Below, piece by piece: positions 3,748 to 8,051 of a DNA stretch of 64,000 nucleotides. The notes under the pieces are model-generated. The model was not told the origin of the DNA and did no database searches. It saw only the letters and a list, made by a program, of their open reading frames with translations. Where the stretch lies: contig NZ_CP049250.1 in assembly GCF_011046895.1 (NCBI RefSeq), positions 1,283,501 through 1,347,500 of the forward strand, written 5' to 3'. The DNA comes from Rhizobium rhizoryzae. GTDB lineage: Bacteria > Pseudomonadota > Alphaproteobacteria > Rhizobiales > Rhizobiaceae. The translations under genes and the position numbers were made by a program. Position 1 is the first letter of the stretch. Each line of letters opens with the position of its first letter.

Positions 3748-3954
3748 GCGTTGGGGGTGACGAATGGTCAAAACAGTGCTAAAGCGCGGCCCTGCGAGCC
3801 AATCTGCGGGGGTTCTTGTGAATTCCCATTGCGCGGAGCGGAACTCGTTCGCATTTCACACACGACATCGGGTCACGCAATGCGTCTGGCTGCGCATCTG
3901 GCAGGCTGGCCGCAACCGGGTTATGATTTGGCCCGCTCGAATAGGATTTTTGGA

Positions 3955-5199
3955 ATGACTGTTTCCAACGTGATGGCAGTTGCGGATCTCGTGAAGGCAC
4001 CGCTGGTGGCGAACCCGGATCTTCTCTCCGGCAAACCCTCTCTGGTCGGCCTCACGCGTGATCAGCTTGCAGACGCCTTGCGGGAAAAGGGTGTGCCGGA
4101 CAAGCAGGTGCGCATGCGTGTGAGCCAGCTCTGGCACTGGCTTTACATTCGCGGCGTTTCCGATTTCGATGCAATGACCAATGTCGCCAAGGACATGCGC
4201 GAGATGCTGAAGCAGCATTTCACCATTGCGCGTCCCGAAGTGGTCGAAGAGCAGGTTTCCAATGATGGCACGCGCAAGTGGCTGCTGCGTTTTCCGCCGC
4301 GCGGCGCTGGCCGTCCGGTCGAAGTCGAGACCGTCTATATCCCTGAAGAAGGTCGCGGCACGCTGTGCATTTCCAGCCAGGTTGGTTGTTCGCTGACCTG
4401 TTCCTTCTGTCACACGGGGACTCAGCGGCTGGTTCGCAACCTGACATCGGAAGAAATTCTTTCCCAGCTATTGCTGGCGCGAGATCGTCTGGGCGATTTT
4501 CCGGGCGCTGATACGCCACCGGGCGCCTTCGTACCAACGGGGGATCGTAAGGTCACCAACATCGTCATGATGGGCATGGGCGAGCCGCTCTACAATTTCG
4601 AGCATGTGAAAAACGCGCTGCTGATCGCATCCGATGGAGACGGCCTCTCGCTCTCCAAGCGCCGCATTACGCTTTCGACCTCGGGCGTCGTTCCGGAAAT
4701 CTATCGCACCGGTGATGAGATCGGCGTGATGCTCGCCATCTCTCTTCATGCCGTGCGCGACGAGTTGCGCGACATGCTGGTGCCGATCAACAAGAAGTAT
4801 CCGCTGAAGGAGTTGATCGAAGCCTGCCGCAACTATCCCGGCCTTTCCAATGCGCGCCGTATCACGTTCGAATATGTGATGCTGAAGGACGTCAACGACA
4901 GTCTCGAAGATGCCAAGGAACTGATCAAGCTGCTGAAGGGTGTTCCGGCAAAGATCAACCTCATTCCCTTCAACCCCTGGCCGGGCACCAATTACCAGTG
5001 CTCCGACTGGGCGACGATCGAGAAGTTCGCCGATTTCATCAATCAGGCCGGTTATGCTTCACCGATCCGTACGCCGCGTGGTCGCGATATCCTTGCGGCC
5101 TGCGGACAGCTGAAGTCCGAATCGGAACGCATGCGCAAGACGGAGCGGCTTGCCTTCGAGGCCATGATGATTGCCGGTCATGGCGAAGACGACGATTGA
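3955..5199 (+). CDS. rlmN: 23S rRNA (A2503)-C2 / tRNA A37 methyltransferase RlmN
   Basis: This is a radical-SAM methyltransferase of 414 residues that methylates C2 of A2503 in 23S rRNA and A37 of some tRNAs. The radical-SAM cluster motif CxxxCxxC is Cys145, Cys149 and Cys152. The methyl-carrying and resolving cysteines are most likely Cys383 in ILAACGQL near the C-terminus and Cys138 just before the cluster. The GMGEPL motif is present. The reading frame stays open back to 3751, but the added 68 residues look non-conserved, and AGGA lies 8 bases before the ATG at 3955, so that start was chosen. It is monocistronic by context. Confidence 0.92.
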
Positions 5200-5283
5200 T
5201 TGTAGGAAATTGCTGTAGCTATTTCTAATGTGCTCCTTCTTGAGGCGTACTGCGGCAAATTTGTGCAGATATCGCGCAAAGGT

Positions 5284-5357
5284 GAGGTGAAACCGCTTTC
5301 CTCCGGTTGTCTTGCGGCCTAAAAGACAGCCGCAATGACAACAACCGGAGGACAACC
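5284..5357 (+). promoter_or_regulatory. Structured leader masking the ribosome-binding site of the ABC importer
   Basis: A two-tier hairpin lies directly before the ATG at 5358. The outer stem is 11 bp, perfect (5299-5309 with 5342-5352), and buries the Shine-Dalgarno GGAGGA (5347-5352). The inner stem is TTGCGGC / GCCGCAA (5312-5318 with 5329-5335), with a 10-base loop. A competing upstream hairpin, GAG-bulge-GAAA / TTTC-CTC (5284-5303), would use bases 5299-5303 of the masking stem and so free the site. This is the geometry of a translational switch. I do not recognise it as a known riboswitch class. The folding was done by eye. Confidence 0.5.
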
Positions 5358-6311
5358 ATGCGCCGCCTGATCCTGGCTCTTGCAGCCGCAACTGCTTTTA
5401 TCCTTCCCGCCCATGCGGAAAATGTGACCGTTGCCGTGACTGCCATCGTCGAGCATCCGGCGCTTGATGCCGCTCGTGATGGCGTGAAGCAGGCTCTTGC
5501 GGAAGCGGGTTACAAGGAAGGCGAGAACCTCAAGTTCGTCTATCAGTCGGCACAGGGCAATCCTGGAACGGCTGCGCAGATCGCACGCCAGTTCGTGGGC
5601 GATGCTCCCAATGTCATCGTGCCGATTTCCACACCGTCCGCGCAGGCGGTCGTCGGGGCAACGCGTGATATTCCGATCGTCTTTACAGCCGTTTCGGATC
5701 CGGTTGGTGCTCAGCTGGTCAAGGACATGGAAAAGCCGGGTCGTAACGTGACAGGTCTTTCCGACATGCTGCCGGTTGCCGATCATCTGGCGCTGATCAA
5801 GGAAATTACGCCAAACGCGAAGACGATTGGCTATATCTACAATTCCGCCGAAGCCAACTCCGTTTCGACACTTGCTGCGTTGAAGGCTGCTGCTGAAAAG
5901 TCCGGCCTGAAGGTTGTGGAATCGGTTGCGACCAAATCTGCCGAAGTGCAGGGCGCAACGCGTGCGCTGGTTGGCAAGGCGGATGTGATCTACGTGCCGA
6001 CCGATAACACCATAGTCTCCGCGTTCGAAGCGGCCGCCGGCGTTGCCGCAGAAGCGAAGCTTCCGCTCTATGCCGCCGATACGGATTCCGTGGCCCGTGG
6101 CGCCATTGCTGCTCTCGGCTTCAATTACTTCGATGTCGGCAAGCAGACGGGCGCCATCGTCGTGAAGGTTCTGAAGGGCGAAAAGCCGGGTAACATTCCG
6201 GCCAAGGTTGCTGTTGGTACCGATCTCGTTCTCAACAAGAAGGCTGCCAGTGCAATCGGGGTCACCTTCCCGGAAAGTGCCACCAAGCGCGCGACCAAGA
6301 TCATCGAATAA
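5358..6311 (+). CDS. ABC transporter substrate-binding protein (PF04392-type)
   Basis: The product is 317 residues with a signal peptide (1-20, ending PAHA), so it is a periplasmic binding protein. The fold resembles LacI/PBP-type receptors: repeated VTAIVEHPALDA-like start, GNPGTAAQIARQF and a central IVFTAVSDPVG segment, as in the ABC_sub_bind (TrpX-like) family. The start was chosen for the signal peptide and the GGAGGA site 5 bases upstream. It is the first gene of a three-gene importer with the permease and ATPase that follow. The ligand is not evident; family members have been linked to aromatic amino acids. The leader hairpin suggests regulated translation. Confidence 0.85.
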   Translation: MRRLILALAAATAFILPAHAENVTVAVTAIVEHPALDAARDGVKQALAEAGYKEGENLKFVYQSAQGNPGTAAQIARQFVGDAPNVIVPISTPSAQAVVGATRDIPIVFTAVSDPVGAQLVKDMEKPGRNVTGLSDMLPVADHLALIKEITPNAKTIGYIYNSAEANSVSTLAALKAAAEKSGLKVVESVATKSAEVQGATRALVGKADVIYVPTDNTIVSAFEAAAGVAAEAKLPLYAADTDSVARGAIAALGFNYFDVGKQTGAIVVKVLKGEKPGNIPAKVAVGTDLVLNKKAASAIGVTFPESATKRATKIIE

Positions 6312-6378
6312 TTGACCTCAGAGGAGGCTTTGGGTCATTACCCGAGGCCTCCTCCTCCTGCCCATCAAGGACTTGACT

Positions 6379-7260
6379 GTGAGCCAAATTGCATTCTGGG
6401 GCGCTGTCGAACTGGGCCTCGTCTTCGCCTTCGTTGCGATCGGGGTTTATCTCGCCTTCCGCATTCTCGATTTTCCGGACCTCACCGTGGACGGATCCTT
6501 TCCGCTCGGTGCCGCTGTTGCTGCGGTGCTGATCATCAGCGGTCTCGACCCGTGGCTTTCGACTGCGGTTGCCATGGTGGCCGGTGCGGCTGCCGGTCTG
6601 GTGACGGCCACATTGAATGTGCGCTTCAAGATCCTGAACCTGCTCGCCTCGATCCTGACGATGATTGCGCTGTTTTCCGTGAATTTGCGTGTGATGGGCA
6701 AACCGAATGTCGCGCTGCTGAACCAGGATACGATGCTCTCGCCCTTTTTCGGGCAGGGCGTGCCGGAATATCTCGTGCGTCCCATCTTTGTCGGGCTGCT
6801 GGTTATCGTGGCGGTGGTCCTCGTTTGGCGGTTTCTGGAAAGCGATGCTGGCCTTGCCATGCGGGCGACAGGGGCCAATTCCCGGATGGCGCGGGCGCAG
6901 GGTGTAAACACCGGCGGCCAGATCTATCTCGGCATGGCGCTCTCCAATGCGCTCGTCGCTCTCGGCGGCGCGCTGTTTGCGCAGACCAATGGCTTTGCCG
7001 ATGTAACTTCGGGTGTCGGAACGATCGTCGTCGGTCTCGCTGCCGTCATCATCGGTGAGACGCTGCTCGGTGCCCGTGGCATTCTTCTGGCGCTGATTGG
7101 CTGTGTCTTTGGCTCCATCGCCTATCGTCTGGCCATACAGCTTGCGCTGTCCAGCGATGCGCTGGGTCTGAAAGCCTCCGATCTCAATTTTGTCACGGCC
7201 GTGCTGGTTGCCATCGCCCTCATTCTGCCGCGCCTGCGTCGCTCGGGAGGTGCCGCATGA
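6379..7260 (+). CDS. ABC transporter permease of the TrpX-like importer
   Basis: This integral membrane protein has 293 residues and about eight hydrophobic segments. It resembles the branched-chain-type permeases (BPD_transp_2) that pair with PF04392 binding proteins. The GTG at 6379 is preferred as start because AAGGA sits 7 bases before it; a TTG six bases earlier would be too close to that site. The gene follows the binding protein by 67 bases and its stop overlaps the ATPase start by 4 bases (ATGA), so it is translationally coupled. Confidence 0.83.
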   Translation: MSQIAFWGAVELGLVFAFVAIGVYLAFRILDFPDLTVDGSFPLGAAVAAVLIISGLDPWLSTAVAMVAGAAAGLVTATLNVRFKILNLLASILTMIALFSVNLRVMGKPNVALLNQDTMLSPFFGQGVPEYLVRPIFVGLLVIVAVVLVWRFLESDAGLAMRATGANSRMARAQGVNTGGQIYLGMALSNALVALGGALFAQTNGFADVTSGVGTIVVGLAAVIIGETLLGARGILLALIGCVFGSIAYRLAIQLALSSDALGLKASDLNFVTAVLVAIALILPRLRRSGGAA

Positions 7261-8051
7261 TTTCGCTCAGTGATATCCAGGTGGTGTTCGGTCGCGGCAC
7301 GCCACTGCAAAAGCAGGCGTTGAAGAAGATCGATCTGACGATCGAAACCGGTTCCTTCGTGACCGTGATCGGATCGAATGGTGCCGGCAAATCGACGCTG
7401 CTGGGCGTGCTGGCGGGCGATGTTCTGCCAACGGCAGGCCGGGTGACGATCGGCAATGTGGATGTGAGCCGCAAGCCGACGGCAGCGCGTGCCGGACAGG
7501 TGGCGCGCGTGTTTCAGGATCCCTTGGCCGGCAGCTGCGGCGCGTTGACCATCGAGGAAAATCTGGCGCTGGCGGCGGCGCGTGGCAAGGTGCGAGGCCT
7601 GATGCCTGCGCTCGGCTCGAAGCGGCGGGAATTCTTCAAGGAGCGCATTGCTTCGCTCAATCTGGGGCTCGAAAATCGGCTGAAGGACCGCATGGATCTT
7701 CTGTCCGGCGGGCAGCGTCAGGCGGTATCGCTCGTCATGGCGACGCTTGCCGGGTCAGACGTGCTGCTGCTAGATGAGCACACGGCGGCGCTCGATCCCG
7801 GAATGGCGGAATTCGTCATGCAGTTGACGGATCAGGTGGTCACAGAACGCAAACTGACGACGCTGATGGTGACGCATTCCATGCGTCAGGCGCTGGATTA
7901 CGGTGACCGCACTGTAATGCTGCATGGCGGCGAAATTGTTCTCGATGTGTCTGGAGACAGTCGCAAGGATCTTCAGGTGGAAGATCTGATCGAGATGTTC
8001 CGCAAGATCCGTGGCCAGAAGCTGGACGACGACGAACTGCTGATTGGATAA
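7257..8051 (+). CDS. ABC transporter ATP-binding protein of the TrpX-like importer
   Basis: This 264-residue cytoplasmic ATPase has Walker A GSNGAGKST at 39-47, signature LSGGQ at 149-153 and Walker B ending LLLDEH at 170-175. The residue after the catalytic Glu is His (DEHTAALD) instead of the more usual Pro, a form I associate with the group of ATPases that pairs with these permeases. A histidine in VTHS serves as the H-loop. Coupled to the permease by a 4-base overlap, it completes the importer operon (binding protein, permease, ATPase). Confidence 0.87.
   Translation: MISLSDIQVVFGRGTPLQKQALKKIDLTIETGSFVTVIGSNGAGKSTLLGVLAGDVLPTAGRVTIGNVDVSRKPTAARAGQVARVFQDPLAGSCGALTIEENLALAAARGKVRGLMPALGSKRREFFKERIASLNLGLENRLKDRMDLLSGGQRQAVSLVMATLAGSDVLLLDEHTAALDPGMAEFVMQLTDQVVTERKLTTLMVTHSMRQALDYGDRTVMLHGGEIVLDVSGDSRKDLQVEDLIEMFRKIRGQKLDDDELLIG

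Follow-up and report, generated by a model that had tools for sequence, protein, structure and literature searches.

A ribosome-binding-site-masking hairpin before an ABC importer operon of Rhizobium rhizoryzae, possibly a fold-back mask across the operon's own promoter

Background

The closest described systems are those of phage T4, in which, according to the passages cited, the ribosome-binding site (RBS) of gene e (lysozyme), of soc, of I-TevI and of mobE-type genes is masked by a helix in long RNAs started upstream, and in which transcripts of gene e and I-TevI from nearby late promoters lack the 5' strand of this helix and are translated (PMC3014915, PMC2988022). These are phage genes with late promoters, for which starts and effects have been measured.

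The transposase mRNAs of IS10, IS30 and IS200 also possess 5' structure near the translation start, and their read-through RNA stays untranslated (the fold-back idea). Concerning the silencing of such transposases, antisense RNA, Hfq and 5'-UTR structure are named in the part of the literature cited here (PMC8450116), and T-box control is stated for trpX of Streptococcus suis in the cited part of a further publication (PMC9382623).

The locus considered here lies in a stretch of 64,000 nucleotides of the Rhizobium rhizoryzae genome (contig NZ_CP049250.1, positions 1,283,501 to 1,347,500 of the forward strand), hereafter the window, from the first letter of which all coordinates are counted. 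As in T4 gene e, the long RNA is predicted to sequester the RBS within a stable helix. Unlike in T4, however, it belongs to an importer encoded on a bacterial chromosome downstream of rlmN; the counterpart of the gene e promoter is a sequence prediction (CTTTCC-N17-CTAAAA) outscored by a second candidate at 5195; and Rhizobiaceae lineages appear to reach masking via different base pairs. Unlike in IS10, IS30 and IS200, no transposon was seen at the site. With S. suis trpX the locus shares a related binding protein and, putatively, regulation through an RNA leader, but no Rfam family reaches its gathering score in the window, and the binding protein attains 293.3 bits against NCBIfam NF041285 (TrpX), i.e., less than the cut-off of 390. 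Among the matches listed in our searches of the open-licence literature, several of which were narrow, there was no paper on the leader of this importer operon or on a Rhizobiaceae chromosomal operon of such a design.

Organization of the locus

The operon follows rlmN on the same strand:

3751..5199, + strand: rlmN (longest open reading frame, true start uncertain), the putative source of read-through RNA
5358..6311, + strand: binding-protein gene of the ABC importer (PF04392; TrpX-like, below the NCBIfam cut-off)
6373..7260, + strand: ABC permease (PF02653)
7257..8051, + strand: ABC ATPase (PF00005)

The importer had been called an orphan in the initial annotation; since a permease and an ATPase gene lie downstream of the binding-protein gene, it is none. 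The solved proteins 3lkv, 6hni and 3lft are related to the binding protein of the window, as is TrpX. From the end of rlmN to the start of the binding-protein gene there are 158 nt in the window vs. around 108-110 nt in loci similar to that of A. tumefaciens, and a simple scan of the + strand from 5000 to 5420 yielded no terminator-like site. An upstream leader peptide in the window was considered and rejected: its frame is partly common to Rhizobium sp. FKY42, no RBS was seen, and the ends differ by eye. A further strong hairpin is situated at 6315-6355 (GAGGAGGC...GCCTCCTC), in the gap between the stop codon of the binding-protein gene and the permease gene, and a hairpin of changed sequence is found at the same place in locus L003 of a relative; it resembles the intergenic stem that is common downstream of binding-protein genes.

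The genome of the window is close to those of R. lemnae and Rhizobium sp. FKY42. Within the genus, the leader DNA is present in 3 of 57 genomes (that of the window included) and the binding-protein gene in 19. Leaders of close relatives lacking both the stem and its alternative had been named beforehand as an observation that would speak against a regulatory role; by this test the specific stem is limited to a clade. Predicted masking is also found outside this clade. The window, R. lemnae and FKY42 share a well-conserved tract of around 80 nt (about 5260-5338) that includes TTTGTGCAGATATCGCG-AAAGGTGAGGTGAA. An alignment of the window with Agrobacterium via an 11-nt deletion was discarded, since MAFFT placed substitutions instead.

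The hairpin and its stability

The following elements make up the masking structure and its presumed competitor:

5299..5318, + strand: left (5') arm of the hairpin (RNAfold and sequence), overlapping the putative promoter
5329..5352, + strand: right (3') arm of the hairpin, with the Shine-Dalgarno sequence at its end (RNAfold)
5347..5352, + strand: Shine-Dalgarno sequence GGAGGA, around 95% paired in the long RNA at 37 C
5281..5306, + strand: weak upstream hairpin (-3.5 to -6.0 kcal/mol), the alternative fold of the initial annotation

Positions 5299-5310 (TCCTCCGGTTGT) and 5341-5352 (ACAACCGGAGGA) are perfectly complementary over 12 bp, and 5312-5318 (TTGCGGC) pairs with 5329-5335 (GCCGCAA) over 7 bp. 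The outer stem had been reported as perfect and 11 bp long, of which the perfect pairing holds and the length does not; the perfect inner stem of 7 bp was described correctly, and so, by prediction, was the burial of GGAGGA just upstream of the binding-protein start. In the optimal fold of 5299-5352 (RNAfold), the pairs fall into runs of 9, 4 and 7 bp interrupted by two small bulges, at -31.7 kcal/mol. Folding of the leader region, a check proposed together with the hairpin, gave a z of -3.44 for 5180-5400, and none of 200 dinucleotide shuffles was as stable. The predicted cost of opening the RBS amounts to 15.1 kcal/mol and ranks fourth among 32 gene starts of the window (mean 9.0, sd 4.6), these starts being approximate and one of the three ranked above looking like a spurious open reading frame; the cost is therefore high, yet not unique in the window. 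Taken as predictions, these values support masking of the RBS in the long RNA.

The hairpin that had been proposed to compete with the mask does exist and overlaps with it, but at -3.5 kcal/mol (5284-5303) or -6.0 kcal/mol (within 5281-5306) vs. around -32 kcal/mol for the mask it is too weak to displace the masking stem unaided.

A promoter-like element in the left arm

A consensus scan places a candidate promoter across the left arm:

5296..5301, + strand: putative -35 hexamer CTTTCC (four of six consensus bases), at the place of TTGATT in relatives
5319..5324, + strand: putative -10 hexamer CTAAAA, 17 bp past the -35 hexamer; often CTAAGA in relatives
5332, + strand: approximate predicted transcription start, within the hairpin, estimated from the position of the -10 hexamer

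The window clade has lost TTGATT and carries CTTTCC-N17-CTAAAA at this place and distance. In 77 of 80 near named relatives, this place is occupied by TTGATT-N17/18-TAAGAA or a close variant, four of them judged by eye (L066, L086, L089 and L112, which fall outside the search pattern). The pattern itself (TTGATT-N15..19-TAAGAA-like) was matched by 73 of the 80 named Rhizobiaceae leaders, with a spacer of 17 in 70 and of 18 in three; among the 80 named loci (L033-L112), the three without the element are two of the window clade and L061. The distance of the element to the start codon is 56-65 nt, or 90-116 nt in part of the Sinorhizobium and Ensifer leaders. In many species it follows the stop of rlmN by only 15-50 nt, and it persists in seven leaders from the genus and the near family in which rlmN is not adjacent. 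In a family-wide draw, from which L144-L146 and six further matches were left out, the pattern was missing in 11 of the 26 loci read, such that the element is not universal in the family.

Two variations accompany the element. In L081, L103 and L111 (some Ensifer/Sinorhizobium) it lies 113 nt from the ATG, and the hairpin downstream of it is another one (GAGCGGGATG...CATCCCGCTC in the case of L111). A second TTGAT(G) is found around 26 nt upstream of TTGATTT at a near-constant distance (L043, L062, L082, L104 and others), and this copy might be an activator site.

For Sinorhizobium meliloti, the cited parts of two publications give CTTGAC-N17-CTATAT as sigma70 consensus (PMC2873474), describe the sigma70 -10 hexamer as poorly conserved and state that promoters found in silico require experimental proof (PMC3616915). 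Compared to the sigma70 consensus, the hexamers of the relatives are fair at -35 and poor at -10, where the usual final T is missing; in the window clade the -35 hexamer is poor. When the 150 bases preceding the start were scored by the published S. meliloti consensus with weights of our own choice, the place of the element came first among the sigma70-like candidates in 93 of 99 leaders and never below third; three of these 99 leaders belong to the window clade and were placed by hand. Four leaders (L014, L015, L016 and L061) were omitted from this scoring by hand, and twelve leaders without the pattern were skipped, namely L066 and the 11 pattern-free loci of the family-wide set (L118-L143).

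In a scan of 165 bases, CTTTCC-N17-CTAAAA is the best site in the leaders of R. lemnae and FKY42 and the second in the window. There, and only there, ATTGAT-N18-CTATTT (5195-5224), which overlaps the stop of rlmN, scores higher (8.9 vs. 7.8). Neither sister leader conserves the second hexamer of this candidate, whereas both keep the candidate inside the hairpin.

Concerning the occurrence of the element elsewhere, a relaxed string was not enriched in 36 genomes (13 matches vs. 13 in the reversed control, 14 with a spacer longer by 3 nt), and three of the 13 matches were the importer operon itself; a general promoter string was therefore rejected. The strict pattern gave five matches in 151 family genomes and none in the control. 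Three of the five are situated at the importer operon, and the remaining two precede other genes by 53-78 nt. The latter are found near position 1500 on the minus strand in loci L113 and L116, and we take the genes from their translations to be IalB-like and iolE-like.

Covariation of the promoter side and the RBS side

In the swap test, the part of the leader preceding the predicted start was exchanged between species and the opening cost of the RBS was measured; this lessens the effect of relatedness and does not remove it. Native leaders exhibit higher opening costs than exchanged ones in all three data sets, namely 9.23 vs. 7.55 (n = 49), 8.99 vs. 7.43 (n = 39) and 9.58 vs. 7.54 (n = 25, sd 0.45), a difference reached by none of 3000 permutations in each case. 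Without the window clade, the respective numbers at the three cut-offs are 0, 1 and 0 of 3000.

The control genes were flat: there was no effect at the starts of the ATPase (z -0.6, n = 17), of rlmN (z -1.7, n = 20, all representatives) and of the permease (z -1.3, n = 30 of 53 representatives), with gene starts approximate in the run of the latter two, whereas the binding protein in that run gave a z of 4.0 (n = 30 of 72 representatives). Identity cut-offs were looser than in the main test (ATPase <73/90; rlmN, permease and the accompanying binding-protein run <66/90), and argG was too rare (3) to serve as a control. When single segments were exchanged, the -35/-10 segment had the largest effect (z 3.6), followed by the upstream segment (z 2.1) and the discriminator (z 2.0).

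The leaders in the promoter, shuffle, swap, segment and adjacency tests were admitted by a pattern that requires TTGAT and TA, such that part of the invariance at these bases is built in; in the window clade the position was set by hand at CCTAAAAGAC, and the folding tests omit L033 and L034 as duplicates of L001 and L003. Compared to shuffles that keep the composition and the promoter bases, 12 of 49 leaders are more masked (p<=0.05) but nine are less masked (p>=0.9), and thus lineages differ; with dinucleotide shuffles, 9 of 42 leaders are at p<=0.05. Strong masking, defined as a rank <=0.1 (no more than 10% of the exchanged stretches giving masking as strong), is found in 23 of 102 leaders with adjacent rlmN and in none of eight without it, a contrast resting on about three independent changes as counted by eye. 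Overall, strong masking exists in only about a quarter of the lineages, and RBS masking appears to behave like a selected property across species in this part of them.

A first swap test on pairing energies gave a native mean of -12.6 vs. -10.2 kcal/mol for the exchanges, with strong pairing in the A. rubi-like and the short-leader Ensifer clades; native pairing was no better than that of the exchanges in A. tumefaciens, in L082 and in L004-L028 except L009. By inspection, the register of the stem shifts between clades while the 17-nt spacing is kept, which favours a promoter with lineage-specific hairpins. The small flanking hairpins also vary by clade: they are not always present and their register differs. 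This speaks against one common aptamer, and a conserved aptamer (TTGATTT...CCTAAGA with these hairpins) was dropped after this test and inspection. What near relatives conserve is an element with promoter spacing, not an aptamer, and the lineages with masking seem to use different base pairs. In L082, L087 and L099, the stem masking the Shine-Dalgarno sequence (AAGACTG/CAGTCTT and CTTCC/GGAGG) competes with GATTGATTT/AAATCAGTC, a two-state arrangement that is more switch-like than that of the window.

Possible roles of the hairpin

We prefer, with a probability of roughly 45%, to read the hairpin as an insulating fold-back mask that spans the operon's own promoter: its left arm falls within the predicted -35/-10 region, and the predicted start is located inside the hairpin. 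Read-through RNA from rlmN would carry both arms, such that the Shine-Dalgarno sequence would be hidden and the importer would not be made, whereas transcripts from the operon's own promoter would begin past the left arm, such that they could not form the mask and their RBS would be open, as in T4 gene e and I-TevI. The predicted opening costs agree with this: in the window they amount to 12.2-15.1 kcal/mol with the left arm, and at 37 C the comparison is 12.2-13.9 kcal/mol with the left arm vs. 3.7 kcal/mol from the predicted start, on the placement of which the latter value depends (about 4 kcal/mol in general). The conserved element of near relatives, the covariation of the two halves with flat control genes and the contrast by rlmN adjacency also speak for this reading. 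Against it speak the poor -35 hexamer of the window clade, the higher-scoring candidate at 5195, the missing enrichment of the element string in genomes, the family-wide loci without the pattern, the restriction of strong masking to about a quarter of the lineages and the incomplete control for relatedness. We infer that the promoter is active, where it starts transcription, that read-through occurs and to what extent, and how translation is affected.

Alternatively, transcription could start upstream of 5284, such that the hairpin would be part of every mRNA and would be opened by a ligand, a small RNA or a protein. The strength of the mask (-31.7 kcal/mol), the covariation of the promoter-side and RBS-side halves and the conservation of around 80 nt (5260-5338) in the window, R. 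lemnae and FKY42 would suit such a leader switch, and the 158-nt gap behind rlmN leaves room for a further promoter, for which the higher-scoring candidate at 5195 is available. This candidate, however, is not kept in the two sister leaders whereas the hairpin-internal one is, a conserved aptamer was not seen, and the alternative fold is weak; two exclusive folds of similar stability, as in a translational riboswitch, are not given by the two that had been named. Rfam, to the families of which the T-box belongs, yielded no match at the gathering score either in the window or in the loci of 18 relatives, in agreement with the initial annotation, which had recognised no riboswitch class upstream, and a known riboswitch was dropped on this ground. 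Permissive searches with the leaders of the window and of one relative returned only low-scoring matches below the gathering scores (microRNA in one; microRNA, snoRNA, CRISPR repeat and a plastid family in the other). Control by a ligand or metabolite through a riboswitch, as had been suggested, is left unsupported, with no Rfam match at the gathering score and the alternative fold far too weak, and we regard a leader switch in general as less likely than the fold-back mask.

The hairpin could also be functionless, if the promoter were conserved and drift in the window clade happened to complement the Shine-Dalgarno region. The confinement of the leader to 3 of 57 genus genomes, the lack of strong masking in most lineages and the mere fourth rank of the opening cost among the 32 starts of the window fit this neutral explanation. 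Masking is nevertheless kept despite changes in the right arm (opening costs with the left arm of 16.9 kcal/mol in the R. lemnae leader vs. 18.2 kcal/mol in that of FKY42), the swap test remains significant without the window clade, and the control genes show no effect. We rate a neutral structure as likely as a leader switch.

An RNA thermosensor, consistent with the sequestered Shine-Dalgarno sequence and suggested initially, is hardly credible and was dropped, since no melting of the RBS is predicted within 20-50 C (between these temperatures, the mean pairing of the Shine-Dalgarno sequence in RNA from 5268 goes from 0.94 to 0.955, and the opening cost drops only from 16.1 to 12.1 kcal/mol); together with the lack of an Rfam match, this leaves both a known riboswitch and a thermosensor unsupported.

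Implications for the Rhizobiaceae

Extended to the family, the fold-back mask would imply that promoter and RBS co-evolve across the Rhizobiaceae in such a manner that read-through RNA is silent and the operon's own transcripts are open, with masking rather than particular base pairs being conserved and with different pairings in several lineages, that of the window included. We hold this extension, in which the operon would be a chromosomal counterpart of T4 gene e, only tentatively and at somewhat less than even odds.

When genomes are scanned, sites of this kind resemble riboswitches and may be mistaken for them, and the swap test could find further cases wherever close gene pairs lack a terminator. 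If the preferred reading is true, a bacterial chromosomal operon would insulate itself translationally from the gene that precedes it, and the same DNA would double as promoter and as left arm of the RNA mask.
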